From an uncultured Bacilli bacterium (GTDB lineage Bacteria > Bacillota_I > Bacilli_A > RF39 > UBA660): a stretch of DNA of 52,946 bases. The stretch covers positions 1-52,946 of the forward strand of contig CALVQV010000003.1 in assembly GCA_944358325.1 (NCBI GenBank). The letters are read 5' to 3'. Shown piece after piece: positions 6,873 through 52,759 of this stretch; position 1 is the stretch's first letter; every line of letters begins with the position of its first letter. The position numbers and the translations under genes are program-made. The notes below the pieces were generated by a model. It made no database searches. It saw only the letters and a list, made by a program, of their open reading frames with translations, and was not told the origin of the DNA.

Positions 6873-6899
6873 TCTATCACCTATTATTAATTATAACAT

Positions 6900-6932
6900 A
6901 ATAAAAAAGAATAATAAATTATTATTATCCTC
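6900..6932 (-). terminator. Probable terminator after the kinase-like region
   Basis: On the minus strand AATAATAA/TTATTATT is followed by CTTTTTTATT. The stem is all A-T, so the call is moderate. It separates the HD/kinase unit from the P-type ATPase, whose own TATAAT box follows immediately. Confidence 0.45.
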
Positions 6933-6940
6933 TTTGATAA

Positions 6941-7675: not shown

Positions 7676-8275
7676 CTATTCTTCTCTATTTTCAAAAATA
7701 TTATTTTTAACAAAATCTTCATTTCTCTTATCATAAAAAATGTAATCAATTAATTCTTTCAAACGTCTAAATATATCTAAACTTTCATCTTCGTTAAAAA
7801 CTAAACTATTATATACTTCTTGATAATACCATTTTTGTTTATCAAAACCTCTTTTAAAAGCGCTAAAGTCATATTCACCTTTTATTTCTGAAATAATTCG
7901 TAAATCTTCTAAATTACTTATTTTATCAGCACATATGATTGCTTTATGTCTTAAATCTAGATTTTTGACAAGATCAATTGTGTGTTGTTTTCGATCTTCC
8001 CAAGATAAACTTTTATCAGGTTCACTTGCCCCCATAACTAATGAAGCAATATCTTCACCAAATTTTTTAATAATATCTTTTTCTTCATATTTAGTATCTT
8101 CAACAACATCATGTAAATAACCAGCTGCAACAACATTATCATCAAAATCATACTCTTTTAAGATATTAGCTACATTAATAGGATGTATAATCATTGGTTT
8201 ATCTAAATCGCTTTTTCTTTTTTGCCCCTTATGAGCTTTAATCGCAAACTTTTTTGCTTTTGATACAATATCCAT
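7676..8275 (-). CDS. HD-domain phosphohydrolase, RelA/SpoT hydrolase-like
   Basis: About 199 residues, cytoplasmic. It resembles the hydrolase domain of RelA/SpoT and the small alarmone hydrolases: a conserved His in KAHKGQKR (about 16), His in MIIHPINVA, the metal-binding LHDVVEDT (about 55-62), and DKISNL near 137. It could hydrolyse (p)ppGpp or another nucleotide; no synthetase domain is present. The ATG at 8275 is preferred over the TTG just before it because GGGGTGA lies four bases upstream. The next codon after its TAG stop continues in the same frame into a P-loop kinase-like domain, so the functional product may be longer. Confidence 0.85.
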   Translation of the reverse strand: MDIVSKAKKFAIKAHKGQKRKSDLDKPMIIHPINVANILKEYDFDDNVVAAGYLHDVVEDTKYEEKDIIKKFGEDIASLVMGASEPDKSLSWEDRKQHTIDLVKNLDLRHKAIICADKISNLEDLRIISEIKGEYDFSAFKRGFDKQKWYYQEVYNSLVFNEDESLDIFRRLKELIDYIFYDKRNEDFVKNNIFENREE

Positions 8276-12392: not shown

Positions 12393-12418
12393 ACTACCAC
12401 TCTCTTTCTTACTTCATA

Positions 12419-12463
12419 AAAAAGCGCAATACAAAACTATAAAGCCTGTACTAGCGCCTTTTT
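12419..12463 (-). terminator. Probable terminator after the ASCH gene
   Basis: On the minus strand AAAAAGGCGC and GCGCTTTTTT pair across a long 26-base loop that itself has little structure. It lies just past the ASCH stop, separating the restriction-modification operon from the KAP gene. Confidence 0.5.
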
Positions 12464-12469
12464 ATTCTT

Positions 12470-12844
12470 TTATATATTCCATATTCCCTGTTTTCCAGAT
12501 ATCGCTTTATCATCATCTATTTTTTCAACAACTTCTAGTTTCCAAGCATATCCAGTTCTATCATATTTATGTCCATACACTAATTCATTTTCTTCAATTA
12601 TTTGCCTATTTATTTCATCATTTAATTCAATACAATCTAAAATTTTTACTTTTGCTATTATTCTAGAATGAGGATAATTTAAATTAAGATGTTCAAATTT
12701 TTTCATTGCATCTTTATCTACACCTTTGCCAGCATGAATTAATATTTCTCCCCTATAACTATATTTCCAACTTCTAAATTCATATTTTTTTAATCCCTCT
12801 GCTACTAATGTTGCCCAAGGTTGCTTAAGAGTTATTACTCGCAT
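12470..12844 (-). CDS. ASCH-domain protein
   Basis: A 124-residue single ASCH domain (PUA-like beta-barrel, thought to bind RNA or modified bases). It shows the family start ITLKQPWATLVAEGLKKYEFR, RGEILIHAGKG, and a late YAWKLEVVEKI. ASCH and related EVE proteins are often found beside restriction systems, where a modified-base reader role has been proposed. The ATG overlaps the endonuclease stop by ten bases and its only ribosome site is a weak AAAGAAG, so translation is probably coupled to the endonuclease. Whether it protects, senses or regulates is unknown. Confidence 0.85.
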   Translation of the reverse strand: MRVITLKQPWATLVAEGLKKYEFRSWKYSYRGEILIHAGKGVDKDAMKKFEHLNLNYPHSRIIAKVKILDCIELNDEINRQIIEENELVYGHKYDRTGYAWKLEVVEKIDDDKAISGKQGIWNI

Positions 12845-13590
12845 TCTTCTTTAAATCCTTCATAAGTGCTAAAAGCTAGCATGTATAATGATTTTAAGAT
12901 ATCAGGGTTCTTTGAACGCAATTCACTTATTACCGTATCATCTTCAACAACAAATTCATCATTCTCTGCAATTATTTCATCAATTATGATTGGTAATTGT
13001 TTGCATATCTTATAAAATGCCTCTTTATCCCCAGTTACCTCTTCGTAAAATTTATCTATTGATACTCTTTTTATATGTTCATTTGAAACTTTCTCATAAT
13101 CAAGAGAAACATTCCAAATAATATTTTGACTTTTCTTTGCAATTATTTCAACTAAATAACAATCACAATTATCATCATTAAGTAATTGAGTTGTCATTTT
13201 TAAAAATGTTTTTTGAGCAGCCGAAGAATTCATAGTATTATGTTTATTTTTCATTTCAACATAAACTTTACTTCCATTTGGTCTAGTATATATTACATCA
13301 AATCCCACATTTGGAACTTCACAATTAGCAATATATTTAAATAAATTTTGGTGAAAATATCCAATAGCGTTAGTATTTGTTTTATCTCTCTGTCTTACAA
13401 GTTCATTATCAATTACTTCTTCTATTGTTTTTCTATACACCTTACTATCAAATGTCAATTTAATAGGATCAATAATATTACTATTAAAAGATTGTAAATT
13501 AATACTTTTTAAAGTGTCATCATACGTTTGTATAGTATTAGATACATGCTTTTTAAAATTCTCTCTATCTATAAAATTTAAATCCCACAT
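12835..13590 (-). CDS. Type II restriction endonuclease, Eco47II family
   Basis: A 251-residue enzyme recognised as the Eco47II/SinI type, whose known members cut at GGWCC or GGNCC sequences. The N-terminal WDLNFIDRENFKKHV, the central NAIGYFHQNLFKYI, and a nuclease-like DVIY(x)7KVYVEMKNKHNTMNS, which supplies Asp, Glu and Lys in a PD-(D/E)xK-like arrangement, support this. It begins in a one-base TAATG overlap with the methyltransferase stop. Recognition sequence is inferred from family, not read from this sequence. Confidence 0.85.
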   Translation of the reverse strand: MWDLNFIDRENFKKHVSNTIQTYDDTLKSINLQSFNSNIIDPIKLTFDSKVYRKTIEEVIDNELVRQRDKTNTNAIGYFHQNLFKYIANCEVPNVGFDVIYTRPNGSKVYVEMKNKHNTMNSSAAQKTFLKMTTQLLNDDNCDCYLVEIIAKKSQNIIWNVSLDYEKVSNEHIKRVSIDKFYEEVTGDKEAFYKICKQLPIIIDEIIAENDEFVVEDDTVISELRSKNPDILKSLYMLAFSTYEGFKEECE

Positions 13591-14606
13591 TATACTTCAC
13601 CTCCATTTAATGCAGTCATTATTGATTCTCCAACACATTTTGCTAAATTTACAGGAACAGCATTCCCTATTTGTTTATATATATCATTCATTTTACCCGC
13701 AAAATTCCAATTATCAGGGAAAGATTGTATTCTTGCATATTCCCTAGTCGTAAATGGTCTACTTTCGTCTGGATGACATCTATCTGTCTGTTTCATCATA
13801 GGTGAGCAAGTTAATGTTAAAGATGGCTCATCCCATGATAGTCTTCTTGCTATTCCTGTTCTTCCTCCACCCATATAATAACATGATTTCATGTATTCTT
13901 TAGCAACGTCATCAGGTAAATCTCTCCAATATCCGCCCGGTGGAACTAAATCAAATACTTTCTTTTTCTTCTCTGGATATTTTGCTCCAACTGATTCTGG
14001 AACATCTTTTAGAACATCTCTTAATACTGGTTTATATTCATGTGGAATTGGATATTCAAATTTAACTTTATCAGTCAAATCTTTTCTTATTCCAATGATT
14101 ACAACCCTTTGTCTTTTTTCAGCGACACCATAATCCCATGCATTTAAAACTTTCCATTCAACTTTATAACCTAAATCTTCAAAAACATTAATCATAGTTT
14201 CAATAGTTTTACCGCCATCATGTGTAGTCAATCCTTTTACATTTTCTGCAAAAAACATTTTAGGCTTTAACTGTTTTATAAATTCAGCATAGTAATAAAA
14301 CATAGTTCCTCTAACATCATCTAAACCTAATTTTTTTCCTGCATAACTAAATGACTGGCAAGGATAACCACCTGAAATCAAATCAAGTTCCCCTTCTTTT
14401 AAATTAAATTCTTTTAATAAATCTCTTTTTGACACTTCTACAATATCTTCATTTAATACATTCCATTTAGGTCTATTTAATTTTAACGTTTCACATGCTG
14501 TTTTATCTATTTCTATTAAAGCAACTTCTTCAAATCCTGCTTGTTCCAATCCTAAAGCAAGTCCCCCTGCTCCTGCAAATAATTCTATACATTTTCTATT
14601 TTTCAT
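13590..14606 (-). CDS. DNA (cytosine-5-)-methyltransferase of the restriction-modification system
   Basis: Transfers a methyl group from S-adenosylmethionine to cytosine C5 and protects host DNA from the partner endonuclease. Motif I is ELFAGAGGLALGLE, motif IV with the catalytic Cys is GGYPCQSFSYAG, motif VI is FFAENVKGL, motif VIII is EKRQRVVIIG, and motifs IX-X are RRLSWDEPSLTL and KQIGNAVPVNLA. Between VIII and IX lies the target-recognition region. The frame is open to an ATG eight codons further up, but that one lacks a ribosome site; the ATG at 14606 has AGTGAGG seven bases before it and is chosen. First gene of the operon, followed by the endonuclease and ASCH genes. Confidence 0.95.
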   Translation of the reverse strand: MKNRKCIELFAGAGGLALGLEQAGFEEVALIEIDKTACETLKLNRPKWNVLNEDIVEVSKRDLLKEFNLKEGELDLISGGYPCQSFSYAGKKLGLDDVRGTMFYYYAEFIKQLKPKMFFAENVKGLTTHDGGKTIETMINVFEDLGYKVEWKVLNAWDYGVAEKRQRVVIIGIRKDLTDKVKFEYPIPHEYKPVLRDVLKDVPESVGAKYPEKKKKVFDLVPPGGYWRDLPDDVAKEYMKSCYYMGGGRTGIARRLSWDEPSLTLTCSPMMKQTDRCHPDESRPFTTREYARIQSFPDNWNFAGKMNDIYKQIGNAVPVNLAKCVGESIMTALNGGEV

Positions 14607-39705: not shown

Positions 39706-39731
39706 AGAATTGTAGAAGGAGGAATATGTAT

Positions 39732-40358
39732 ATGAGTAGAAAACTTAGAATACTATTAGTTTTTATATCTCTATCGCTGACATTAAGCTTGATGAGTAAT
39801 ACTTATTCAAGATATGTAGCAGATACAACAAGTAATGTTGAAATGCAGTTTGCTAGTTGGCAAATTCTTGTTAATGAAAATGACATTACTTCATCAACTA
39901 CATCATCAATTGAATTAATGCCTGTCATGGAAGAAAATGAACATATTGCGAATAATACTATTGCTCCATCATCTAAGGGTTACTTCGATATTGATATTGA
40001 TCCAACAAATGTTAATGTATCATTCAGTTATGAAGTAAGTTTAGAAGTATTAAATGAAGATATGCCAGATTTAATGATTACTAAATATTCTATTTTAGAT
40101 AGTAATTATAATGAAGGTGATGAACTTAAAATAGAAACAATCACTGATAATTCAATTAAAGGAACATTAAATTATAATAATGATAATCAAGATTTTAAAT
40201 ATGAACCATTTACAATTAGAATCTACTTCGAATGGTATGATGGAATAGATAATCAAATGGATGATCAAAAAGATACAGAAGTTGGAAATAAAGCTGCTGT
40301 TGAAAATACTCAATTACAAATTAAAGCAAATATCAATTTCAAACAAGAAGTATTATAA
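39732..40358 (+). CDS. SipW-dependent TasA-like exported protein (lone copy)
   Basis: A 208-residue exported protein with N-terminal hydrophobic helix and a SipW-type signal motif TYSRYVADTTSN (T-Y-S-x-Y), then VEMQFASWQILVN, as in TasA/camelysin-like fibre proteins. It should be processed by the signal peptidases encoded at 41-47 kb, although it lies on the other strand with its own promoter and terminator. GGAGG nine bases before the second ATG decides the start (39732). No LPXTG anchor. Confidence 0.8.
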   Translation: MSRKLRILLVFISLSLTLSLMSNTYSRYVADTTSNVEMQFASWQILVNENDITSSTTSSIELMPVMEENEHIANNTIAPSSKGYFDIDIDPTNVNVSFSYEVSLEVLNEDMPDLMITKYSILDSNYNEGDELKIETITDNSIKGTLNYNNDNQDFKYEPFTIRIYFEWYDGIDNQMDDQKDTEVGNKAAVENTQLQIKANINFKQEVL

Positions 40359-40390: not shown

Positions 40391-40422
40391 AAAAAAAACT
40401 TAAAGAAGAAATCTTTAAGTTT
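40391..40422 (-). terminator. Terminator of the SipW/AAA+ operon
   Basis: AAACTTAAAGA/TCTTTAAGTTT stem on a six-base loop, running on the minus strand into TTTTTTTG. It overlaps the stop of the 405-residue surface protein. Confidence 0.8.
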
Positions 40423-41638
40423 ATACTAAGTTAGTTTTACTAGCAACAATAACAGGAACTACACTACAAGAAGAAGTTTTATCTAGTCCATAAATTTTAG
40501 AATTCAAATCATCTATTTTAGTAAGTGAAAATCCTCTAGTAGTATCATATTCACTATTAATCCAATAACATTTATGTGTAACTAAATAATTAAATCTATT
40601 ATTTAAAAATTGATAATAACTATTATAGCTAATTAACTTAGAAACTTCAGTACTAACTCTATCCTTATATTGCATATCGCCAATAATAAGATTAGAAAGT
40701 TTTTCATTAACAATAATTGAATTAACAACATCCAATGATATAGGTTTGAGTACATCATCAATAGTCAAAGAGCGTGTTGAAACATTCCATTTATTAGTTA
40801 TACTAGTTAACAACGAATTGTAATTATTAAATGTCCCTTCAGCATAAGTACTATATAAATCAGGTAATAAATCTACTGTTGGATCACCCAATTTATTATT
40901 AGGATCAATAACATATGTTTTAATACAATTACCACCAAGTGTCATGCATCTTTGATTATTAACAACATCAAATAGAATAACTTCTCCTAAACTATAATTA
41001 GGATCACTAGAAGTTTCTGTTTCTAAATATTGTTCAGCATTTACACTAATTACAAGTTTTAATGGTGAACGCATTTGATAATTGGGATCATCAACGTGCT
41101 TTTTTTCTTCTGCTTGTTTAAATAAATATGTATCAGTTCCCCATTTACTATCTTCTTTATCATTATCAGAATCAAGTGGCCAAGATATAGATACTTCAAA
41201 TTCACTTATACCATCTTTAGCTAAAGCAAAATTTTTACTTAGACTGATGTTAACATGAAATGGATATTCATGAGATAATTGATCTTCTAAATATCCAGGT
41301 TCAAAATCAGAACTATGCATTTCATTATCTAAAATGCGTGCTGAAGTAATTTCATAACTAATTTGTGCTAATGCATCGCCTTTATTTTTAATTTGAACTT
41401 TTTCGCTATATGTTTCCATTCCAGGATAAACATCATCTAATGAAACAACAATGTCATTTGAAACAATTTGAGCATCTTTTTCAAATTCAATATACCAAGC
41501 TTGTACACCTATTTCAGTAGAAACAGAAGACATACCACTATATGCAAACCATGCTAGCGTTATTGAAATAAAAGATACACCGAGAAAAAATAATGACATT
41601 AAATTTAATTTTAAATAAACTTTATGTTTTGGTTTCAC
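40421..41638 (-). CDS. SipW-dependent surface protein with C-terminal extension
   Basis: A 405-residue exported protein. N-terminal hydrophobic helix and SipW-type motif SITLAWFAYSG (T-L-A-x-F) followed by EIGVQAWYIEF. The first ~200 residues look like the TasA-like beta domain (VQIKNKGDALAQISYEI); the rest, including CMTLGGNC and a final CYWIN with another Cys near the end, is a different, unrecognised domain with two Cys pairs. It is the last gene of the operon with the signal peptidase, AAA+ and DUF2357 genes. Confidence 0.78.
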   Translation of the reverse strand: MKPKHKVYLKLNLMSLFFLGVSFISITLAWFAYSGMSSVSTEIGVQAWYIEFEKDAQIVSNDIVVSLDDVYPGMETYSEKVQIKNKGDALAQISYEITSARILDNEMHSSDFEPGYLEDQLSHEYPFHVNISLSKNFALAKDGISEFEVSISWPLDSDNDKEDSKWGTDTYLFKQAEEKKHVDDPNYQMRSPLKLVISVNAEQYLETETSSDPNYSLGEVILFDVVNNQRCMTLGGNCIKTYVIDPNNKLGDPTVDLLPDLYSTYAEGTFNNYNSLLTSITNKWNVSTRSLTIDDVLKPISLDVVNSIIVNEKLSNLIIGDMQYKDRVSTEVSKLISYNSYYQFLNNRFNYLVTHKCYWINSEYDTTRGFSLTKIDDLNSKIYGLDKTSSCSVVPVIVASKTNLV

Positions 41639-41669
41639 CCCAACACCACCTTTAGTTCTTCTTTATAAA

Positions 41670-42239
41670 TTAATTTCTTTTTCTTCTTTCTTCTTCTTTC
41701 TCTAATAATGTAGAAATAATTTCTGAAACAATTATGTATACAATAGGTATTACTACAAAAATTAACAAACCTATTGGAGTTGAAATTAATTTATACATAA
41801 AAGAAAGTAAAATTGTTTTATAAACAACAACACCATATATTTGGTCTTCTGAAACTTCATATACATCTTCGACACCATATTTTATTCCTTTAGTTCTAAA
41901 AGAATATTTACCATTTTCATCTTTTTCAATTTTGGTAACTTCATGAGTAATTATCTTATCTTTGAAATCACCTTTATTTCCTAAATAGCTAATTGCATCT
42001 CCAACTTTAATTTCAGAAGGATCAACTTCTTTAGCTACCAATATATCGCCTATATTATATTTGGGCTCCATACTGCCAGAAATAACTGTAAACATTCGAT
42101 AATCAAAGAATGATATTTTATTATTACTAAAACGTTGTAAAGCAACAACAAATAAGAATAATAGTACAAAAACTACTATTAATATATTTAAAACTTTTTT
42201 TATAATTTTAAAATATTTATTATCTAATAAACTTTTCAT
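41670..42239 (-). CDS. sipW: Signal peptidase I, SipW (archaeal/ER) type
   Basis: A 189-residue membrane peptidase with N-terminal helix, catalytic Ser in TVISGSMEP (near 53), GDILVAK, and His in IITHEVTKIE (near 98) in place of the bacterial Lys, defining the SipW/ER group. Tail helix at the C-terminus. It processes the SipW-type TasA-like proteins encoded around it. It lies 10 bases after the DUF2357 gene stop. Confidence 0.9.
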   Translation of the reverse strand: MKSLLDNKYFKIIKKVLNILIVVFVLLFLFVVALQRFSNNKISFFDYRMFTVISGSMEPKYNIGDILVAKEVDPSEIKVGDAISYLGNKGDFKDKIITHEVTKIEKDENGKYSFRTKGIKYGVEDVYEVSEDQIYGVVVYKTILLSFMYKLISTPIGLLIFVVIPIVYIIVSEIISTLLEKEEERRKRN

Positions 42240-42248
42240 TTTATACCA

Positions 42249-43379
42249 CTACAAGTATTCTTGCATCCTTTCTAAGTATTCATCCATAGCATTTTTAAAC
42301 TTCTTTTTAACGTCATCTACACCAACTAAACGTTCGCTTTTTTCGTCTTTTAATTCTTTTGCAATCATACACATAAGTTCTTCATCAGTAATTTTATAAC
42401 CACAACTATTTAATAAAGAAACTATTCGTTTAATTTCCTCAGTAAGAAGTAAAACGGCATATTTAGACATTTTTCTTTTTTGTTCGCGCTTAGAAGAAGA
42501 CATAGAATCTAAAACAAAATAATCAATTAAAAATGCGTGATCCAAGAACCCTTTCATAACATCATTGCCATTGTTATCAACATTATCTTTTTCATCTTCT
42601 TTATTATCAAGATCATAAGTTCTAATATATTCCCACAATTTAACTGCTATTTTAAAATTAGGATTTTTTAAAATAATATTTGTTTTCTTAATTGGCGGTG
42701 CGATTAAAGGCACATGAGCACGATCAAGTGCCTTCATCATTTCGCTTCTTTGCCAACTAGAAATATACTCCTTAATGCGTTTAATTCGATGTTTAATTGC
42801 TTTTATTTCATCTTTTAATTTTTTATCAATATCAGAATTAGGTAAAGATTCAGTAGTAACCTTTAACTCAATATTAACTTTTTGATTTAAAGTTTCTGTC
42901 TTTCCTACATATTCTAATAACTTATCATCACAAACTTGAAAATTATTTAATAGTTCTTCCTTATCTGAGATAAAGCGAACCATATCATGTATCAATGTAT
43001 ATAGAAAACGATTTTCATAAATATTAAATGTTTCTTCATTACGAATATCTAAAATCTTTTTAGGTTCAACACTTCTATCTGCATTAACCTTATTGATATA
43101 TTCTGTATGTTTAGCTAAATTCTTAACACTAGAAACATTAATTCGTTTAGATTTTTCAATTAAAGTAACATTTTCTTCTTGAATAAGAGTTAACTTCGGT
43201 CTTCTAACGATAATATCAATAAATGGACAAGCTTCTTCTATTTCATCTACCCAATCAAATGACATTAATTCGCCAAAGTAATCAGATTTAAAATGCATGT
43301 CTGATTCTAATTTTTTATTAAATTTTGCACCGACTTTTTTTACTTCTTCAAGCGTTTCTTCTTTCAAAAAATCAGCCAT
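42249..43379 (-). CDS. DUF2357-like, McrC-type partner protein without visible nuclease
   Basis: About 376 residues, soluble. It resembles DUF2357/LlaJI-McrC-type subunits: a helical N-terminal region (FKSDYFGELMSFDWVDEIEE), then IRNEETFNIYENRFLYTLIHDMVRF, which I recall as a signature of DUF2357 proteins. DUF2357 proteins are usually followed by a PD-(D/E)xK nuclease, but no such motif is visible in the C-terminal 120 residues (DNKEDEKDN onward, then helical). The start ATG 43379 is chosen for AGGGG nine bases upstream. It begins seven bases past the AAA+ gene's stop, the normal McrB-McrC order. Confidence 0.7.
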   Translation of the reverse strand: MADFLKEETLEEVKKVGAKFNKKLESDMHFKSDYFGELMSFDWVDEIEEACPFIDIIVRRPKLTLIQEENVTLIEKSKRINVSSVKNLAKHTEYINKVNADRSVEPKKILDIRNEETFNIYENRFLYTLIHDMVRFISDKEELLNNFQVCDDKLLEYVGKTETLNQKVNIELKVTTESLPNSDIDKKLKDEIKAIKHRIKRIKEYISSWQRSEMMKALDRAHVPLIAPPIKKTNIILKNPNFKIAVKLWEYIRTYDLDNKEDEKDNVDNNGNDVMKGFLDHAFLIDYFVLDSMSSSKREQKRKMSKYAVLLLTEEIKRIVSLLNSCGYKITDEELMCMIAKELKDEKSERLVGVDDVKKKFKNAMDEYLERMQEYL

Positions 43380-43395
43380 ATACATCAACCCCTAC

Positions 43396-44928
43396 CTATA
43401 TACTCTTTTTAAGATTTTCCAAATAAGCTATACATTCTTTCATAACACCTTTTCCAAAATTCTTATTTAAATAAGAAATAAATGGATCTATTTCATCACG
43501 AATAAATGCAACACTTAATTGATCAAATTTACGTAAAATTTTTCTTGCAATAAAGTAATCTATCGCTTCAATTTCTTTACCACCACATGCTACATAAACA
43601 GGCACAAATGTATTTAATTGTTTCATAATACGATTACCAAATGCAATTCTAAAATGTTCGATAACATAATCATCAATATGACCAACATCATTTAAGCCTT
43701 TATCAGAAAGTGGATATTTTTGTTCTGCTTCTCTAAATAGAGATTCAAGATAACTAGCATTTACATTAACCGCATCTTGTTCACGACATTTAAATGGTTC
43801 TGTTTTAGTATTAATATCAAGTGGCATAGCACGGTCATAAACCTTATCAGTAACCATGAATGTTGAATCATCGTTATTGATTGTACCAATATACCATAAA
43901 TTACCTGGAATTTTTAATTTACCTTTAATAATTTTGGCTGGGTCGTTAGGCCATGGACTAGAAACTAAATCAACAATCCATTCATCACGACTAGGCATTT
44001 CCAAAATTGATAAGAAATCTGCAAAATAATATTCAACACGTGCTAAGTTCATTTCATCTAGAATGATTGTATGAACATCATCATCAAAACTTGCTGTATA
44101 TATTTCACCTAAAGCTTTTGTTTCATTAAACTTTTTAGTAAATTCATTGAAATATCCCAAGAAATCTGATTTATCACGCCATGATGGTTCAACAGATGCA
44201 ACACAAGAATCTTCTCCAACAAACTTACCCCAAGCATAAGCTAAGGAAGTTTTACCTGTACCAGATATCCCTTGTAGGATAATTAATCTACCACAAGCTA
44301 AACCAGCAAAGAAAGGTCTTAGAATATCAAATTCATAATATAAATGTAATTGACTTGCTGAGAAACATCTGAAATCATCGATTAATTCAGCTAAAGTAAA
44401 ATTATTTTCATAATTTTTAGGTTTAAAATTAACCATTTCTTTATCAATTGATACTAGTTTAGGGAATCTTATACTTGGATCTCCTTCATCAACAACTTCT
44501 TCATCAGTAGAACCAGTACCTTCTTCTTGATTTTCATCTTCAGGATTAAGTCCTAATTGTGAAACCTTCATAGCCATCAATTCGTCTTTTTCCTTCATTA
44601 ATTTACGAACTTGTTCATTTAAATTGCCAATTTCATTAAGTAACTCATCTTTACTCATATGAATACTTGCTCTTCTCGCCATTTTTCTAACAAATAAGAA
44701 AATTAACGCAGCAATAATTAAAATAATAATAACTAAAACTGCAATGCCTAAAAAAACAAATACTTTTTCAGGACCACTGAAACTATTTTTATAATTGTCT
44801 ATTATTTTGGCATATTCACCAAAATCAAAAATTTGCATAATTCCGTTTACAAGTCCTTCGACGATCATAAAGAAACCGTCGAAGAAAATGGAAACAAATT
44901 CATAGAAGAATCTAATAAATGTATTCAT
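43396..44928 (-). CDS. Membrane-anchored McrB-like AAA+ ATPase
   Basis: A 510-residue ATPase. An amphipathic stretch (1-38), a transmembrane helix at ~55-80 (FVFLGIAVLVIIILIIAALI), a coiled coil at ~93-121 and an acidic linker (EDENQEEGTGSTDEEVVDEG) precede the AAA+ core: Walker A LQGISGTGKTSLAYAWGKF (218-236), Walker B TIILDEMNLARVEYYFADFLSILE (288-310), and sensor 1 IGTINNDDSTFMVTD (347-360). These match McrB-type AAA+ proteins, but McrB is cytosolic and N-terminally carries a DNA-binding domain. Here the membrane anchor replaces it. It forms a pair with the DUF2357 protein, so a membrane-associated machine is inferred. No role in DNA restriction is supported. Confidence 0.85.
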   Translation of the reverse strand: MNTFIRFFYEFVSIFFDGFFMIVEGLVNGIMQIFDFGEYAKIIDNYKNSFSGPEKVFVFLGIAVLVIIILIIAALIFLFVRKMARRASIHMSKDELLNEIGNLNEQVRKLMKEKDELMAMKVSQLGLNPEDENQEEGTGSTDEEVVDEGDPSIRFPKLVSIDKEMVNFKPKNYENNFTLAELIDDFRCFSASQLHLYYEFDILRPFFAGLACGRLIILQGISGTGKTSLAYAWGKFVGEDSCVASVEPSWRDKSDFLGYFNEFTKKFNETKALGEIYTASFDDDVHTIILDEMNLARVEYYFADFLSILEMPSRDEWIVDLVSSPWPNDPAKIIKGKLKIPGNLWYIGTINNDDSTFMVTDKVYDRAMPLDINTKTEPFKCREQDAVNVNASYLESLFREAEQKYPLSDKGLNDVGHIDDYVIEHFRIAFGNRIMKQLNTFVPVYVACGGKEIEAIDYFIARKILRKFDQLSVAFIRDEIDPFISYLNKNFGKGVMKECIAYLENLKKSI

Positions 44929-44934
44929 CTAAAT

Positions 44935-46950
44935 TCACCCCCAGAAATTTCCTACTTTACTTTCAATATTTTCATAAACTAACTTATCATGTAAATCTTT
45001 TGGTAAAGTATCTAAAACATTACTTTTCTTAGCAACCTTTTTATCAATAAAAATATATTGCATTAAATTAATACATCCAAGATCTTTTGCTTTGATTGCT
45101 TCTACTCCTGTAATATCTAAAGCAAAGTTATACCCTTGTTTTACTAAATCTTTAATTACTTTTTTATTACCATCTAAATCTTGATATCTAACAACAACAT
45201 AAATACTATTTTTTGCATATTCATCGCTAAATAATTTAAACACTTTATCTAACTTATTAGCTTTTCCATATAAACTGCCAGGAACATATATTACATATTT
45301 ACGTTTAAAATCTGCATTAAGCATATCTTTAGTAATTTGAACTAATAAGATATTGATTAAAACTTCCATCTTATCTTCAGCAACAACACCCTCAGAATAA
45401 GTCTTATCAACGATATAATCGCTATATACTTTACTAAATTCAATATTGTGTTTTAATTCAACACCATAGAAATGTTTAAGTACTAAATTATTAAATTCTA
45501 ATTCAAACATCGTTGTATTAAGCTTATTTAATGAATATTTTAACATACCATAATGTAATTTTTGAACTTTTAAAATTTCATTTATCATATCTTTTAAAGT
45601 CTTAGCATCTAAGTCATTGATTACTTTTAATACTTTATTAGTATAGGCGTCTCTTTTTGATTGTATATCATCTAAAACTATATAAGCTTGTTCCATATAC
45701 ATAATTAATGTAAAGAAATTTAAATATTTATGAACTTTTTCACTATATTTAGCATCGCTACCTTTGTAACTTTTAACTAATTTATTAGCAAAATCTTTTA
45801 AAGCATTTTCAATTTTTGTATTCATATTTCTGCCATTATATTCAACATTGGTATCCCCACAGAAATTATAATATTTAGCATCAATATAAACTTTTAAAAA
45901 TTCTTCCTTAATAGTTGCTTCGTTTGGTTTATATTTTTCATTATTATTTAAAATATCAATAATTTTATTTAACTCTTCTGTTTTAATAAGCATAGCTTTT
46001 TCAATGATTGTTTTACATTTTTTCTTTTTCTTTTGTAGAATTTCTAAATTCAATTGAATTTCATCTTCATTTTCTTCTACTTCTTCTTCTACTTCTTCTT
46101 TTTTAGGAACAACAATTTCTTCTTCCTCTTCTAAACGAGCAATTGCTTTTTTAGAATAAACTTTTTTTAAATCATCTTCAGCAACAGAAACCATTCTAAA
46201 ATACATTGTCTTATCTAATTCATTTTCAGAAATAGCAGTGTCTTCTTCTGTATCAATAGGATTTGTAACCTCATTAATAGAAACTATTTCTTCTTTTGGT
46301 TCTTCTATTTTAACTTCTTCTAACTTTGTATTTTCTAAAACTTCATTTACTTCTTTTTTCTTATTAATAAAATTATTGATAGTATCTAAAATTTTCTTTA
46401 TCATCTTATCCAATCCCTTTACTAATTCATTATTTTTATTCTCATTATTATCTTTTTTAAATGTATAAGCAATCAAATATAAAGTAATAATTGATGCTAA
46501 TAAAACCCATGGATTAAATAAAATCTTATGAATAATTCCAAATCCTGGTAATATATTAACAACCTCACCTATTATTTGATCTTTACTTACTGGTTTCTCA
46601 TCTTTAGACTTATTATTATCTCCCATTGTAACAAAGGTTCCATTATATGCTTCAAGAACACGATGTGTTACTAACTTGCCATCTTCTTCGTATGTAATAA
46701 TATCATTAGGTTTAATATCATTACTTTTTTTAACAATTATCCAATCTCCTATTTCAATAGTACCAGACATACTACCTGTCTTAACTTCAAAAATTGAATA
46801 ACCAAAGAAATTTGAATAATCATTTCCTAATAATTTAACTTGAATATTATTATATACAGCAACTAATAAGATAATACCAAATAAAAAAATCAAAACATCA
46901 AGCATAATATTAATTACTTTTTCTAATACTTTATTCCCTTTTACCCTCAT
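44935..46950 (-). CDS. SipW-type signal peptidase fused to a cytoplasmic regulatory-like domain
   Basis: A 671-residue fusion. Residues ~1-175 are a SipW-type signal peptidase: N-terminal helix, catalytic Ser in VKTGSMSGTIEIGDW, His in LVTHRVLEAY and GDNNKSKDEKPVSKDQIIGEVV with a second membrane helix at ~150-165. A Lys/Glu-rich linker (175-310) follows, then a 360-residue domain not found in signal peptidases. Its last ~120 residues (GYNFALDITGVEAIKAKD, YIFIDKKVA) look like a degenerate EAL domain with the metal-binding acidic residues mostly missing, suggesting a nucleotide-binding or scaffold function. It precedes the AAA+ gene by only 6 bases. Confidence 0.82.
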   Translation of the reverse strand: MRVKGNKVLEKVINIMLDVLIFLFGIILLVAVYNNIQVKLLGNDYSNFFGYSIFEVKTGSMSGTIEIGDWIIVKKSNDIKPNDIITYEEDGKLVTHRVLEAYNGTFVTMGDNNKSKDEKPVSKDQIIGEVVNILPGFGIIHKILFNPWVLLASIITLYLIAYTFKKDNNENKNNELVKGLDKMIKKILDTINNFINKKKEVNEVLENTKLEEVKIEEPKEEIVSINEVTNPIDTEEDTAISENELDKTMYFRMVSVAEDDLKKVYSKKAIARLEEEEEIVVPKKEEVEEEVEENEDEIQLNLEILQKKKKKCKTIIEKAMLIKTEELNKIIDILNNNEKYKPNEATIKEEFLKVYIDAKYYNFCGDTNVEYNGRNMNTKIENALKDFANKLVKSYKGSDAKYSEKVHKYLNFFTLIMYMEQAYIVLDDIQSKRDAYTNKVLKVINDLDAKTLKDMINEILKVQKLHYGMLKYSLNKLNTTMFELEFNNLVLKHFYGVELKHNIEFSKVYSDYIVDKTYSEGVVAEDKMEVLINILLVQITKDMLNADFKRKYVIYVPGSLYGKANKLDKVFKLFSDEYAKNSIYVVVRYQDLDGNKKVIKDLVKQGYNFALDITGVEAIKAKDLGCINLMQYIFIDKKVAKKSNVLDTLPKDLHDKLVYENIESKVGNFWG

Positions 46951-46989
46951 ATAATCACTCCTGTTTCGAGCGTACTACTACTATAAATA

Positions 46990-47018
46990 ATTCTACCATA
47001 TTCGACACTTTTTTACAA
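46990..47018 (-). promoter_or_regulatory. Promoter of the signal peptidase/AAA+ operon
   Basis: TTGTAA, 17-base spacer, TGGTAGAAT (extended -10) on the minus strand, 39 bases before the first ATG. It separates this unit from the surface-protein unit. Confidence 0.6.
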
Positions 47019-47025
47019 CTAAAAA

Positions 47026-47052
47026 TTAAAAAAAACTAATATATAATTAGTT
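47026..47052 (-). terminator. Terminator of the surface-protein unit
   Basis: AACTAAT/ATTAGTT stem on a five-base loop followed by TTTTTTTT on the minus strand. The stem includes the stop of the signal-peptidase-like gene. Confidence 0.85.
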
Positions 47053-47574
47053 TTCTTCAGCACCATATTTAATTTCAACAATTAAAGCATAAACTTCATA
47101 AATAAATATTAAAAAACATGGAACAAGTACAATGAATAAAAAGCCCCAACGAGATTCTACTACTGATAAATAGCCACCTAAATCATTATAAACTTTAGTT
47201 GGTTTTCCTGCAATAAATTCTCTTGAATAGGAATTACCATTTTCAAAAGTAATTGCTTCATCATCAGGGTATACTTCTCCAACCACACCAATTTTAATAT
47301 GTGGTTTTCTATCTTTATCTACATAATAAGTAAATACAGTATCACCTTTTTTGTATTCAGAAATTTCATCTGCTTCAACTATAACTAAATCACCTTTTTT
47401 ATAACCTTCAAAACTTACTTTTTCAGTCAATTTAACTAAGGTAATTTCACCAAATTGTGTAACTCCATATTTATTGTAATTTAATAGTAATATTGTCATA
47501 CATAACGCAAAGCTGAAATATACAACTGCTATTAATGTAAACACAATTTTCTTTATAACCTTTAATGCTTTCAT
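47047..47574 (-). CDS. Signal-peptidase-like protein without catalytic residues
   Basis: A 175-residue membrane protein with N-terminal helix (VFTLIAVVYFSFALCMTILLL) and a C-terminal helix, matching the SipW topology. The catalytic-Ser position reads LTEKVSFEGYKKGDLVIVE (LTEK where active enzymes have SGSM) and no His of the THRV/THEV type follows, although YKKGD is retained. It should be inactive, possibly a binding or chaperone partner for the SipW substrates or the peptidase. Last gene of the unit. GGAGGT is present before the ATG. Confidence 0.75.
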   Translation of the reverse strand: MKALKVIKKIVFTLIAVVYFSFALCMTILLLNYNKYGVTQFGEITLVKLTEKVSFEGYKKGDLVIVEADEISEYKKGDTVFTYYVDKDRKPHIKIGVVGEVYPDDEAITFENGNSYSREFIAGKPTKVYNDLGGYLSVVESRWGFLFIVLVPCFLIFIYEVYALIVEIKYGAEEN

Positions 47575-47628
47575 CTTTACCTCCTACTATATATATATTA
47601 GCATAATTATTTCTAACAAGCAACCATT

Positions 47629-48531
47629 TTAAGGACAAGTATCCAATTCTGTTAAAGAAAAGGCATCCTTATTATAAATTGTATCTAATTTGTTTTTATA
47701 AAATATATATTGATTACTATCTTTACTATTAACCTTGATAGTTATTTCATTAATATAACCACTTGTATCTGTATTAAAAGAAATAACAGAATTAGAATTT
47801 AAATCAAATCTTAAATCAGAACTATTCCACTTAATATTAACACATTTATCGGTAGTATAAGAATTACCGATAACTAATGAACTATAATCAGCATATTCAC
47901 TATAAGATTTTGTAAGCATACCAATAAGACTTTGATCTTTATGAAGTGTATACTTACCACTTATAGTTTTCTTAAACGGACTAGTTGTAGTAGCAATTAT
48001 TTCAACAACCGCACTATCTATTTCTTTATCGCCTGTTTTTACTAATTCAAAATATAAATTACTAATAGCTTGATTATTAATCCAATCATATCCGTTTATT
48101 TCACACGTTGCTTTATCATAAGATGATACATCTACGCTATCACCATTATTATTAACGCATTCTTTATAATTAGATAAAACACCACTATAAGTATTTGAAT
48201 TAGTTCCATTTATTTTACAAGTTGCAATACTAGCCGCTTCACCTAAAACATTGCAAGTGACTTTATAATTAATATCATATTCTGTAACAACAGCATCATT
48301 AAGACTATTTTTTAAATTAAAATTAACTTTGCCACCATCCCAAATATTATTAGCAGTTGCCATTCCCCCTGCACTAAGATCATCACTAGTAAAATAAAAA
48401 CCTTTTGAATTTAAATAGTAATTCCAAACTGAATTAGATACATATTTAGCAAAAGTAAAACCATTAGTAGCAACTAAAATAAATGCTAACATAATAACTA
48501 AATATATTAAATATTTTCTAAACTTTAGCAT
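47629..48531 (-). CDS. SipW-dependent exported protein
   Basis: A 300-residue exported protein. N-terminal helix and SipW motif GFTFAKYVSNSVW (T-F-A-x-Y) followed by FKLNSKG-like beta start, then a beta-rich region (VNFNLKNSLNDAVVTEYDINYKVTCNV) with several Cys residues (VTCNV, TCKING, ECVNNN, TCEING), and a terminal KDAFSLTELDTCP. No anchor motif. It should be an extracellular fibre or fibre-associated subunit. Confidence 0.8.
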   Translation of the reverse strand: MLKFRKYLIYLVIMLAFILVATNGFTFAKYVSNSVWNYYLNSKGFYFTSDDLSAGGMATANNIWDGGKVNFNLKNSLNDAVVTEYDINYKVTCNVLGEAASIATCKINGTNSNTYSGVLSNYKECVNNNGDSVDVSSYDKATCEINGYDWINNQAISNLYFELVKTGDKEIDSAVVEIIATTTSPFKKTISGKYTLHKDQSLIGMLTKSYSEYADYSSLVIGNSYTTDKCVNIKWNSSDLRFDLNSNSVISFNTDTSGYINEITIKVNSKDSNQYIFYKNKLDTIYNKDAFSLTELDTCP

Positions 48532-48539
48532 AAAATCAC

Positions 48540-49085
48540 CTACTCACTCATCTTTTGCCAACTATTTATTTTTAGATCTAGAAAATCAACTAAATCAGCA
48601 TAATCTTCACTATCATAATCAGCTGGAAAACTAACTTTTAACTTGTAATTATCTAAAACACCTTGTTCATAACTCATCTCTTGAATAGCTGAATTACAAA
48701 CTAAAATATTAGATGTGTTTCGCGAATATGTTTCATCACATTGCATAATTAACTCTTCTGTTTTGCCATTAACTTTATATAAAGCAATATCAAGAGGCAT
48801 AAAATGAAAAGTTTCAATTGTGATTTGATAATTAATTGTAACATTACTAACTGTTTTATCCAAAGCGTTACTAATTGAAAATAAATATTCTTCTTCTTTA
48901 CCAGGGGTAATATTATCTAAAGAAAGTTCTAAGTGATCTAATTTTTCTGTTTCAAAAATAAACTTAGCTATTTGTTGATTAGCAAGAGTTAAATTAGAGG
49001 AAGAGGAAAAAATAGAATAAGTTATACCAGTTCCTAATAATAAAGCTACAAGACCAATCAGAATAATTAAAACCTTATACTTCAT
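48540..49085 (-). CDS. SipW-dependent exported TasA-like protein
   Basis: A 181-residue exported protein with one N-terminal helix and a SipW-type motif ITYSIFSSSSNL (T-Y-S-x-F), then IAKFIFETE. The beta-rich middle (LSLDNITPGKEEEYLFSISNA) matches the TasA/camelysin-like fold: the ITPG-exx-pattern is common in this group. Between the large surface protein and the 300-residue partner, with spacing of 8-11 bases, so co-translated. RBS GGAGG. Confidence 0.85.
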   Translation of the reverse strand: MKYKVLIILIGLVALLLGTGITYSIFSSSSNLTLANQQIAKFIFETEKLDHLELSLDNITPGKEEEYLFSISNALDKTVSNVTINYQITIETFHFMPLDIALYKVNGKTEELIMQCDETYSRNTSNILVCNSAIQEMSYEQGVLDNYKLKVSFPADYDSEDYADLVDFLDLKINSWQKMSE

Positions 49086-49096
49086 ACTATCTCCTC

Positions 49097-52000
49097 CTAC
49101 TTCACAATGAATTTCTTTTCTAATGCTCCAACACGTCTATTACCATCATATAATTCAAAAACAAGCTTATATCCATTACTTTCTAATTTAGACATATCTA
49201 AATTTAAATCAAAATGATTATAAGTATTCATTGTACCATCATACATTAATGGATTTGTAAACATGTAATATACATTACCACCTATTGGTGTTAAATTATT
49301 AGTAACATAATCTTTTAAATTAACTATCATATAATCTTGATTATAAGCAGTTAAAATACTCTTTTTATAAAGCGAAATGCGAATATTTGGACTTGTAAAT
49401 GTTCCATTTTGAATAGCATCTAAACCTAAAGTATAAACACTATCATTTTTCTTTAATATTTTATCTTGATCATCCATAAAAACATTAAAACTATAGTTTT
49501 CATTAACTACTTGATTAGAAAAACTTACAGGTACATTCACATAAGTACTACTATTTAAATCATCATGTAGTCCATCATAAGCAGCATAACTATAAATTTC
49601 AAAATGATAATTACCTTCAACAAATTTAGTATTATCTTGATAAGTTTCAATTGTTAAAATCTTATTAATTTCATTTAAACCACTTGTAAAATTAATTCTA
49701 ACAACACCTGCATTATCTGGCGAATAATCTTTACCATCAACTTTAAAACGCATATTTTTTAAATACTCACGTTCAATTGTTTTACCATTTTCATCAACTA
49801 ACTTTATGGCAATACCAATATTTTTATTTAAAAAACTACTATCATTAATAATTTCATTATTAATAGTTTTGTATGAGATACCAGCTTTTAAATTAATATT
49901 TGTTGTTGAATTACTATTATAGGAAATAATTGTTCCATCATAATCACTAGATATATATGGAAGAGCATCAACATTGTTATAAATATTAATTTTCTTAATA
50001 CTATTATCTAAAGTTGAACGTACAACTTCATCATCTTTATTACGAATTTCAATAAACAAACTAACATTTTTATAATCTGAAGTTATATTTGTATCTGAAA
50101 AATCAAGCATAATTTTATAATTTTCATCAACACTAGATTTTACCTCTTCAACATACTTATTTTCCATTGTTCCTTTACCTAATTCTTCAAATAAAGTAAA
50201 TGGATAAGTAGCTACTTTAACACAAGATGAATCCATACCATCACAACTATTATTGTAATTATATAAATCTTCATCAGTTGTTATTTTATAACTATAAATC
50301 TTATTAGTCTTCTTATCATATAATAATATCTTTGTATTTTTTGGTAGTAATATAGTTGAAACTAAATTATGTGTATAATCACTTTGATAAGGATTACTAT
50401 CAACATAACTAACATGCATACTTATACTTGATTTATCAGTAATATTAATAGGTCCAGATAAATAATCATCACTTCTACCTAAAGAAATGCCATTAACTTT
50501 ATAACCACCATAAACAATATAATCAGTATTAACATAAGTAATATGGTTCGTATTATCAACTACTTTAGCATAAACAACATAAGTTCCTTCTTTATCAATA
50601 GATAAATTAGAAGCATTTGTCCATAAACTTTCATCAAGATTACTAACTTCTGATGCAGTTAAAGATTTATTAGTAACATAATATTTAACACTAGCAACAC
50701 CAGATAAATCATCAACAGCTTCAATTTTAATATCACTTGTTTCTTTAACATAAACAGAATTTAAATCTTCTGTTAAAGAATTCCAATTTTTATTATTCAA
50801 ACTAATTGTTACATCACTACCTGATTTATCTAAAACTAATAAATCAGAATTTAAATATGCGACATTCCCATCATAATCAACTACTTTAGCATAAACAACA
50901 TAAAAACCTTCTTCTTCGATAGAAACTATATTTTCATAAGTATTCCATTCAGTTATAGCATCAATTTCACTTCTTAATAATGGTTCTTTAGATTCACTAA
51001 TATAATAATAAACTTCTTTTAAAGGTCTTAAAGTATCAGCTTCTTCAATACTAAATGCGATATTAGAATCTAAATAAATATCATTTAATTCATATCCAAC
51101 ATTATTCCAAGTATATGTACTAACATGCAAATTAGCTAGTGGATTATTAAGATCATCCATAAATAAGATTGGATAACCATCTACTTCAAAAGTCCATGCA
51201 TTGGCACTGTTACTTGCCATATCTACATTATCAATAAATTCTCTAAAACTTAAAGTACCAGTTAAAAAAGTCTTATCCTTTAAATTTCCAACCGTTGTTT
51301 TAGAAGCACTGCCACTTGTACTACCGTTTTTAACAACACTACCATCGGTATAATAAACTTTATTATTAGTAAGTCTAGCATTAGTTAAAGTATCATAAAG
51401 ATAATTAGAACCTACACTAAAACTATTTCTAACAGTTAGTAAAACACTATTATTAGTTAAATGTCCTACAAGTCCCCCACCATTAGGAGCTATAAGAATA
51501 CCAATATTATAAGTTTTATTAATAGATAAAGGATTAGCACCTTTATTAATATTACCAACTAAACCAGAAGCACTATAATTACTACTAACATTACCAGTAT
51601 TATATGATTGTGTAATTACAACACCATTTGTAGCACTACCAACAAGTCCCCCACTATATAAATGTCCATAGACTTCACCTTTATTGATAGTATTAACTAA
51701 CTCAATACGATCAGTTTCACCAATTAAACCACCAGCACTTGCACTTTCATATGAAACTTCATATTTCACATCAGTAAATTTAAAAGTTGTTGTTCCTTCA
51801 CTTTGATAATCAATAACTAATTTAGTATAATCTGTTAAACTCATACTAATAGGTCCATTAGTAACCGCATTACCATTAATACTAACAGAACCATTATCAC
51901 CAGTAATTTCTAAATTACCAGTTAGTTTAACTTCTTTTACATTGCCACTAATAAATGGTAAATCTAAATTAACTTCTTTATTTAAAGTTGGTTCACTTAA

Positions 52001-52759
52001 CACAACTTCTTCAATAATGACGTCATTATTTAATGTGTTAGTAACTAATTCTTTTTTACCAATTACATAACCATTAAATAAGACATTAGAAAGTTTAGCA
52101 TTAGTAGCATTAGAAGCAATCCCACCAGTTCTAACACCACCATATATTAAAGCATTTTCGACATATAAATTAGTAACTGTACCTTCTAAATTAGTAAATA
52201 AACCTAAATCATTAGCATTCTCATCACTTATATATAAACCATATATAGAATAATAATTACCATCAAATGTACCTTTAAAGTTATTTAAACTTTCAAACAA
52301 ATTAACATTACTAATTTTAACACCTGAACGACTAGTATTATCATAAAATTCATTTGTATAATTTTTAATATAGAAACGACTATTACTTAAATTATATTGC
52401 GGACCATTCGCTTCATCATATTCAAAAACACCTTGATTTAAAACAATGTCATGATTCAAAGCAAAATATAACCCATCATAATTTGTAGTCTTTAACATTT
52501 TGGCAAAATATGCAAGTTCAGAGCCATTAGAGATAATATAAGGATCATCTTTACTACCTGTTCCCGAACGATAACTATTAGCAACACTACCATCCCATTC
52601 TGCTACTTGATAAATAGAACTTCTATTTTTAAAACGAGCCAAAGTAGGAAAAGCAATTGAGACTAGCAAAGTAAAGACGATTAAAACAGCTATAATCTGC
52701 ATCTTATTTTTTTTGGATAATTTATTAAGAAAACTTTTTACTCTTTTCATAAAACTCAT
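49097..52759 (-). CDS. Large surface protein with GLUG-like and Ig-like repeats
   Basis: A 1220-residue exported protein. Residues ~19-45 hold a signal helix with a SipW-type motif FPTLARFKNRSS followed by VAEWDGSV. A parallel-beta-helix-like region (about 60-470) includes DPYIISNGSELAYFAKML and GLUG-like turns (GGLVGSATN, SGLVGNIN). Two later repeats of roughly 110 residues, each ending in VVYAKVVD and YLNSD/YVNTD, look Ig-like/PKD-like. No LPXTG or C-terminal membrane segment, so attachment, if any, is by other means such as the SipW-type neighbours. First gene of its unit; AGAGG before the ATG. Probably an adhesin or matrix/biofilm surface protein; the ligand is unknown. Confidence 0.85.
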   Translation of the reverse strand: MSFMKRVKSFLNKLSKKNKMQIIAVLIVFTLLVSIAFPTLARFKNRSSIYQVAEWDGSVANSYRSGTGSKDDPYIISNGSELAYFAKMLKTTNYDGLYFALNHDIVLNQGVFEYDEANGPQYNLSNSRFYIKNYTNEFYDNTSRSGVKISNVNLFESLNNFKGTFDGNYYSIYGLYISDENANDLGLFTNLEGTVTNLYVENALIYGGVRTGGIASNATNAKLSNVLFNGYVIGKKELVTNTLNNDVIIEEVVLSEPTLNKEVNLDLPFISGNVKEVKLTGNLEITGDNGSVSINGNAVTNGPISMSLTDYTKLVIDYQSEGTTTFKFTDVKYEVSYESASAGGLIGETDRIELVNTINKGEVYGHLYSGGLVGSATNGVVITQSYNTGNVSSNYSASGLVGNINKGANPLSINKTYNIGILIAPNGGGLVGHLTNNSVLLTVRNSFSVGSNYLYDTLTNARLTNNKVYYTDGSVVKNGSTSGSASKTTVGNLKDKTFLTGTLSFREFIDNVDMASNSANAWTFEVDGYPILFMDDLNNPLANLHVSTYTWNNVGYELNDIYLDSNIAFSIEEADTLRPLKEVYYYISESKEPLLRSEIDAITEWNTYENIVSIEEEGFYVVYAKVVDYDGNVAYLNSDLLVLDKSGSDVTISLNNKNWNSLTEDLNSVYVKETSDIKIEAVDDLSGVASVKYYVTNKSLTASEVSNLDESLWTNASNLSIDKEGTYVVYAKVVDNTNHITYVNTDYIVYGGYKVNGISLGRSDDYLSGPINITDKSSISMHVSYVDSNPYQSDYTHNLVSTILLPKNTKILLYDKKTNKIYSYKITTDEDLYNYNNSCDGMDSSCVKVATYPFTLFEELGKGTMENKYVEEVKSSVDENYKIMLDFSDTNITSDYKNVSLFIEIRNKDDEVVRSTLDNSIKKINIYNNVDALPYISSDYDGTIISYNSNSTTNINLKAGISYKTINNEIINDSSFLNKNIGIAIKLVDENGKTIEREYLKNMRFKVDGKDYSPDNAGVVRINFTSGLNEINKILTIETYQDNTKFVEGNYHFEIYSYAAYDGLHDDLNSSTYVNVPVSFSNQVVNENYSFNVFMDDQDKILKKNDSVYTLGLDAIQNGTFTSPNIRISLYKKSILTAYNQDYMIVNLKDYVTNNLTPIGGNVYYMFTNPLMYDGTMNTYNHFDLNLDMSKLESNGYKLVFELYDGNRRVGALEKKFIVK

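Follow-up and report, generated by a model that had tools for sequence, protein, structure and literature searches.

Introduction

We know of no energy source and no cytosolic controller for SipW-type fibres, such as those of TasA and BsaA. FimX, which carries an EAL domain, is a cyclic-di-GMP receptor that acts on pili. TasA has an aromatic residue at position P2', which is tolerated by SipW and not by LepB of Escherichia coli, as described in PMC10269814. In McrBC, the finger of McrC enters the McrB ring and activates hydrolysis through a basic residue (PMC7680126). The main text of Bell et al. (2024, eLife; PMC11090510) names DUF2357 as the N-terminal domain of McrC. It also describes a wider NxD coiled-coil clade, in which McrC is often without a nuclease, and a variant in which NxD is followed by D or E, found on the side of the McrB tree that holds CoCoNuT and CoCoPALM. 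The name CoCoPALM is given there, in a few sentences, to an association of the kind reported here, and a separate paper is announced; EAL, GGDEF, SipW and TasA are not mentioned in that main text. Our literature search found no further relevant paper under the name CoCoPALM.

In this study, we analyzed a stretch of 52,946 nucleotides (hereafter, the window) from an uncultured Bacilli bacterium. The window is the whole or one end of contig C3 of a 1.08-Mb genome that is 77% complete. A first-pass annotation of this DNA, made from the sequence alone, had proposed that a membrane AAA+/DUF2357 pair in a SipW-type secretion locus was recruited to a machine that processes or assembles surface fibres.

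Materials and methods

Signal peptidases were assessed with the TIGR02228 model (archaeal/SipW-type signal peptidase; cut-off, 51.85 bits). Homologues of the AAA+ protein with scores above 480 bits were regarded as high-scoring, which gave 99 places. Forty loci from the genomes of the phylum that carry the AAA+ protein were examined. The near relatives are metagenome-assembled genomes with the titles uncultured Bacilli, Mollicutes or Clostridia, and gut samples are the source of many. Retrieved loci are referred to by L numbers.

PD-(D/E)xK nucleases were searched for by hmmscan in the DUF2357 protein of the window and in 36 aligned homologues. The restriction-type outgroup locus L113 was used as the positive control (DUF2357, E 4e-67; PDDEXK_7, E 9.5e-52). 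A strict cut-off was applied to GGDEF matches for the exclusion of many family matches of approximately 680 aa, which are probably GdpP (degenerate GGDEF).

Results

Organization of the operon

Nine successive minus-strand genes (52759 to 40421) lie in one tight operon with intergenic gaps of 6-9 bases. The block around the AAA+ gene was kept in all 80 near relatives retrieved, as far as each contig reaches. Median gaps in the relatives were 3 bases between the EAL-like and AAA+ genes, 12 bases between the AAA+ and DUF2357 genes, and 4 bases between the DUF2357 and SipW genes. The first-pass annotation had listed SipW-type substrates at 40.4, 47.6, 48.5 and 49.1 kb, two SipW-type peptidases, a catalytically blank peptidase-like protein, a membrane-anchored McrB-like AAA+ gene and a DUF2357-like gene without a visible nuclease, all closely spaced. 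Each of these was found in place with the expected features; the degenerate EAL-like domain described below had been missed.

The operon may extend past the end of the window, because in relatives the gene for the large surface protein is directly preceded by one of approximately 543 aa. Proteins of about 540 aa at this position, with no Pfam match, were seen in L030 (442-2073), L017 (636-2279), L020 (588-2219) and L060 (19191-20801). Both RF39-type loci and the extended Clostridia locus have this gene, which is probably an operon member past the window end.

SipW-type substrates

The first gene of the operon within the window (49097..52759, minus strand) encodes a large surface protein of 1220 aa with an N-terminal signal anchor, the SipW-type site PTLA-RF and repeats of an OmpL47-like beta domain. 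Its match to NCBIfam NF047446 (E 4e-7) is under the cut-off, and homologues were found in 30 loci. Three further substrates are encoded on the same strand: a 181-aa protein (48540..49085; site ITYS-IF; family in 57 loci), a 300-aa protein (47629..48531; site FTFA-KY; 51 loci) and, at the other end of the operon, a 405-aa protein (40421..41638; site ITLA-WF; 77 loci). A fifth substrate of 210 aa (39726..40358; site NTYS-RY) is encoded by a convergent gene on the plus strand, and an opposite-strand homologue was present in 59/80 loci.

In all five substrates, the hydrophobic stretch ends with a small residue-x-aromatic pattern (LA-RF, YS-IF, FA-KY, LA-WF and YS-RY). This pattern was found in 269 of 302 family members in the relatives, versus 204 in local shuffles; among other secreted-like proteins, 34 of 80 had it. 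The substrates had no Pfam or NCBIfam match to the TasA/camelysin domain, and their likeness to TasA is limited to the signal and cleavage region.

Two intact peptidases and one blank paralogue

Two proteins encoded on the minus strand exceed the TIGR02228 cut-off and keep the Ser-Met and His motifs. The smaller, of 189 aa (41670..42239), scores 81.6 bits and has its serine at S56. The larger, of 671 aa (44935..46950), scores 73.4 bits and has S60, transmembrane (TM) segments at residues 12-30 and 137-155, and a cytosolic C-terminal domain. Ser and His were intact in 43/43 homologues of this fusion; at the position of the 189-aa peptidase, Ser was kept in 74/76 relatives and His in 75/76.

A third protein of 175 aa (47047..47574, minus strand) is SipW-like, with two TM helices and a weak TIGR02228 score of 15.1 bits, and is devoid of both the Ser-Met and His motifs. 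By pattern, the serine was missing from 22 of 23 RF39-type homologues of this blank protein. By eye, the sole exception (L001) is a chance 'ESM' away from the active-site position.

EAL-like domain

The C-terminal 366 or so residues of the 671-aa fusion form the cytosolic domain, which has no Pfam match. The AlphaFold2 model of this domain (pLDDT 87.7; pTM 0.85) matched the EAL domains of Bd1971 and FimX in Foldseek (E 2.6e-4; probability 1.00). On the predicted structure, the domain is a degenerate EAL fold; the EAL-fold part is encoded at 44971..45507 (minus strand), and the helical N-terminal part of the same domain at 45507-46035. Sequence profile searches against the PDB and Pfam gave one weak EAL match only, and hhalign alignments to neighbouring EAL domains were in register and insignificant. 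The position of the EAL-motif glutamate, E193, is glutamate in 8/36 homologues, and the other motif and metal-site columns are variable. As the active-site columns are not conserved, the domain is unlikely to be an active phosphodiesterase.

The domain is not always fused to a peptidase. In Clostridia-type loci, it is a separate protein of approximately 330 aa encoded directly upstream of the AAA+ gene at the 3-base median gap given above, and the peptidase is its own gene. In three loci, a membrane GGDEF-EAL-like protein is encoded directly upstream of the AAA+-DUF2357 pair (L090, 11051-12418; L092, 10306-11592; L094, 7466-8794); these loci encode surface proteins larger than 2400 aa and have no SipW gene nearby. 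In L084, L088, L089, L091 and L093, a pair of membrane EAL/GGDEF proteins is encoded upstream of the SipW operon. An EAL or GGDEF-EAL protein was encoded in the stretch in 12/17 high-scoring loci outside the family, versus 0/22 lower-scoring loci (p 1.6e-6). An EAL-derived partner is thus a recurrent component of the module.

AAA+ protein

The AAA+ gene (43396..44928, minus strand) encodes a McrB-like protein of 510 aa. Its N-terminus consists of a membrane segment and a short helix: an amphipathic start is followed by a single strong membrane helix at residues 62-80 (44689..44745, minus strand; hydropathy 3.7), and a short coiled-coil-like stretch spans residues 95-120. The sequence RKMARR directly follows the membrane helix, which by the positive-inside rule places the ATPase domain in the cytosol. 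Pfam gave no match to a DNA-binding domain in this protein, and no DNA-recognition domain of the McrB type was found. The FtsB/DivIC family was absent among the Pfam matches listed for it, and the FtsL model gave only E 0.56.

A profile built from 25 AAA+ homologues retrieved the McrB structures 6ut6, 6hz4 and 7vsr from the PDB at E 1.5e-4, and the next chain was at E 0.24. Walker A K226, Walker B D291-E292, N294, the NxD motif N351-N352-D353 and R366 were invariant in all 25 homologues. The residue after the NxD motif was D in 23 of them and E in two.

DUF2357 partner and loss of the nuclease

The gene after the AAA+ gene (42249..43388, minus strand) encodes a soluble protein of 379 aa that matches PF09823 (E 1.4e-8), the DUF2357 or McrC N-terminal type. 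The window protein scored above the PF09823 cut-off, and PF09823 was matched by it and its 36 aligned homologues (37/37). No PD-(D/E)xK domain was found among these 37 proteins by hmmscan, PDDEXK_7 being matched in 0/37, and no conserved acidic/lysine pair was present in the C-terminal half of the alignment. In the predicted model (pTM 0.56), the C-terminus is short and all-helical. Long charged helical tails were seen on the DUF2357 proteins of the relatives L083, L085, L095 and L096. Among the basic residues, K241 is invariant and R127 is near-invariant.

A Foldseek search of the DUF2357 model against the PDB returned no significant match; the hits were mostly kinesin-type helical noise, and McrC (6hz4_M) ranked 37 with E 0.16. 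The assignment of this protein to the McrC finger type therefore rests on Pfam homology. A phmmer search of the L113 protein against the PDB gave no McrC match that would place the activating residue of McrC (Arg263/Lys157) on the DUF2357 protein.

Gene neighbourhood and distribution

The AAA+ protein was found in 59 of 295 genomes of the phylum. Among the 99 high-scoring places, a DUF2357 gene was adjacent in 95 and a SipW-type peptidase lay at most six genes away on the same strand in 93; outside the near relatives, a SipW peptidase was nearby in 13 of 18 such places. The maximum-likelihood tree placed the window within a fully SipW-linked clade of 16 (support, 97/93), and the SipW label required five changes on this tree versus 20 in shuffles. 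The only restriction-like homologues were remote ones of approximately 80-100 bits, such as L113, where DUF2357 is joined with PDDEXK_7; on reading the sequence, a cytosine-methyltransferase-like gene adjoins this pair. The first-pass annotation had named co-occurrence with SipW-type genes as support for its proposal, and restriction-nuclease neighbours or a PD-(D/E)xK nuclease in the DUF2357 protein as evidence against it; these checks came out in its favour.

Lower-scoring homologues fell into several groups. L095-L099 and L119 carry a tandem AAA+-DUF2357-AAA+ arrangement, have large surface proteins and lack SipW. L100-L104 have an AAA+ protein of approximately 600 aa with SipW and DUF2357, and L105-L109 have one of approximately 900 aa without SipW. 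L110-L116 are remote homologues, partly of restriction type. SipW processing is not the sole task of such modules, as some related ones have no SipW genes (L090, L092, L094 and the tandem class).

Several features of these lower-scoring loci were also recorded. In L095 (7832-12426), L096 (7806-12984) and L119 (genes 1 and 3), 1.1-1.2 kb of DNA is 99.7-100% identical between the two AAA+ genes, whose N-terminal membrane segments differ; this is an apparent case of gene conversion, by which a near-identical ring domain retains two anchors. The tandem pairs of L097-L099 have diverged to 76-79% DNA identity. The first AAA+ gene of L095 is preceded by a gene for a 447-aa membrane protein (6464-7807), which by eye resembles a degenerate AAA+ paralogue, with a similar C-terminal end and no Walker motifs. 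In L100, a gene for an ABC-transporter ATPase-like protein and one for a membrane protein follow the DUF2357 gene (11482-13817), which suggests a linked exporter. The partner of the 900-aa AAA+ proteins in L105-L109 is a DUF2357-like protein of approximately 520 aa, which in L105 matches a zinc ribbon; neither SipW nor a nuclease is encoded nearby.

Discussion

We favour, with a probability of roughly 60%, the reading that this locus encodes a machine for the biogenesis of SipW-type surface proteins (fibres), which has taken over a McrBC-derived motor and uses an EAL-fold adaptor. By analogy with McrBC, the AAA+ protein would probably be a McrB-like ring that hydrolyses NTP or GTP and is tethered through its N-terminal helix to the cytosolic side of the membrane. 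Having lost its nuclease, the DUF2357 protein would probably occupy the pore of this ring, as the McrC finger does, and stimulate hydrolysis; its invariant K241 and near-invariant R127 agree with the use of a basic residue by that finger. Both roles, motor and finger, are taken over from McrBC. The fusion and adjacency of the EAL-fold domain point to a probable adaptor or signal input, through which the ring would be linked to the peptidase and the substrates. NTP hydrolysis may then gate or drive what happens to the SipW-type substrates outside the cell, be it release, processing or polymerisation; a fibre output is suggested by their resemblance to TasA-type secretion. That the pair was recruited to a machine for surface proteins at the membrane, as proposed in the first-pass annotation, is well supported by the genomic data; the further claim of that annotation, that this machine processes or assembles fibres, is one that we likewise only infer. 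The earlier and independent grouping as CoCoPALM also speaks for the favoured reading. A more specific version, in which a nuclease-less, membrane-anchored rotary GTPase ring derived from restriction is coupled via the EAL-derived adaptor to the SipW-type peptidases and powers or gates surface-fibre assembly, is put forward tentatively.

It is very improbable that the locus is a membrane anti-phage system, Type IV restriction-like or abortive, with the SipW genes as passengers or a sensor module. In its favour, the module is patchy (70 of 243 family genomes), and the AAA+ protein matches the PADLOC model PDC-M26A (E 1.9e-42) as well as McrB. However, the PDC-M26B model matched the nuclease-bearing protein of L113, whose AAA+ protein also scored higher on PDC-M26A, and missed the DUF2357 proteins of the window and of L085. 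The pair has neither a nuclease nor a DNA-binding domain, and the SipW genes are linked with it too constantly to be passengers. We also consider it unlikely that the pair is a MoxR-like assembly chaperone of the SipW complex, inserting or remodelling the peptidases and the blank paralogue with no force on the substrates, although a cytosolic ATPase with a membrane anchor adjoins integral membrane enzymes and both peptidase genes are tightly linked. The link with surface proteins persists where no SipW peptidase is nearby (L090, L092, L094 and the tandem class), which suggests that the common client is a secreted protein or a membrane platform and not SipW.

Control by cyclic-di-GMP, with the EAL-like domain sensing the nucleotide and switching the ring and the peptidase on and off, would agree with the nearest folds of this domain (Bd1971 and FimX), with the GGDEF-EAL proteins adjoining the module in other families, and with the GGDEF and EAL proteins encoded on contig C14 of the same genome. 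The variability of the EAL glutamate and metal-site positions across 36 homologues speaks against it and makes it doubtful. Within the family, genomes that carry the module show only a small excess of GGDEF proteins (20/70 versus 29/173 without the module, p 0.05) and EAL proteins (10/70 versus 11/173, p 0.07), and most of them are without a strong GGDEF match. As this co-occurrence is borderline, we treat cyclic-di-GMP control as a rival to the favoured reading of an EAL-fold adaptor in a McrBC-derived surface-protein machine.

If the more specific version is true, Bacilli and Clostridia would have a fibre machine that draws its power from the cytosol, is under signal control and is related neither to sortase pili nor to type IV pili. 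A nucleotide-driven ring would be encoded with its peptidases and substrates in one operon in many of these bacteria, gut lineages included. The locus would also illustrate a route for the domestication of a defence motor, by loss of the nuclease and gain of a membrane anchor. The EAL-fold partner, whether fused, separate or replaced by GGDEF-EAL proteins, opens second-messenger control to direct test.

Compared with the McrBC Type IV restriction systems of E. coli and T. gammatolerans, the window pair shares the AAA+ core, the sensor/consensus loop, the Walker motifs and the DUF2357 partner. It differs in having NxD instead of NxxD, a membrane anchor in place of the DNA-recognition domain, no nuclease and other neighbours. 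For the candidate defence system PDC-M26, component A was matched and component B was not. The TasA-SipW fibre operon of Bacillus and the BsaA-SipW operon of Clostridium perfringens likewise combine SipW-type peptidases with substrates whose sites are small residue-x-aromatic; in the window substrates, in contrast, no TasA/camelysin domain was detected, and the operon contains additional blank and EAL-fused peptidases and the AAA+-DUF2357 pair. Degenerate EAL effectors of the FimX/LapD type share an EAL fold without catalytic residues and a tie to surface appendages, whereas the present domain occurs in Gram-positive-type hosts and is fused to or encoded beside a signal peptidase and a McrB-like ring.

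The closest likeness in components is to CoCoPALM, with an NxD-type McrB GTPase, an N-terminal TM segment, a DUF2357 partner and genes of the signal peptidase family. The D or E that follows NxD in the AAA+ homologues agrees exactly with the pattern published for that side of the tree. In CoCoPALM, the GTPase is fused to an FtsB-like TM segment and a coiled coil; the window AAA+ protein has its TM helix, an apparent coiled-coil stretch and the FtsL result noted above. A coiled coil is fused to the McrC homologue in CoCoPALM; the window DUF2357 protein is short and without a long coiled coil, and the long charged helical tails noted above occur in its relatives. The window peptidase further differs in its fusion to an EAL-like domain, and the main text of PMC11090510 gives no gene order or mechanism. 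Relative to that main text, the locus belongs to, or is a variant of, a kind already named but barely described, and the EAL component is its main addition.
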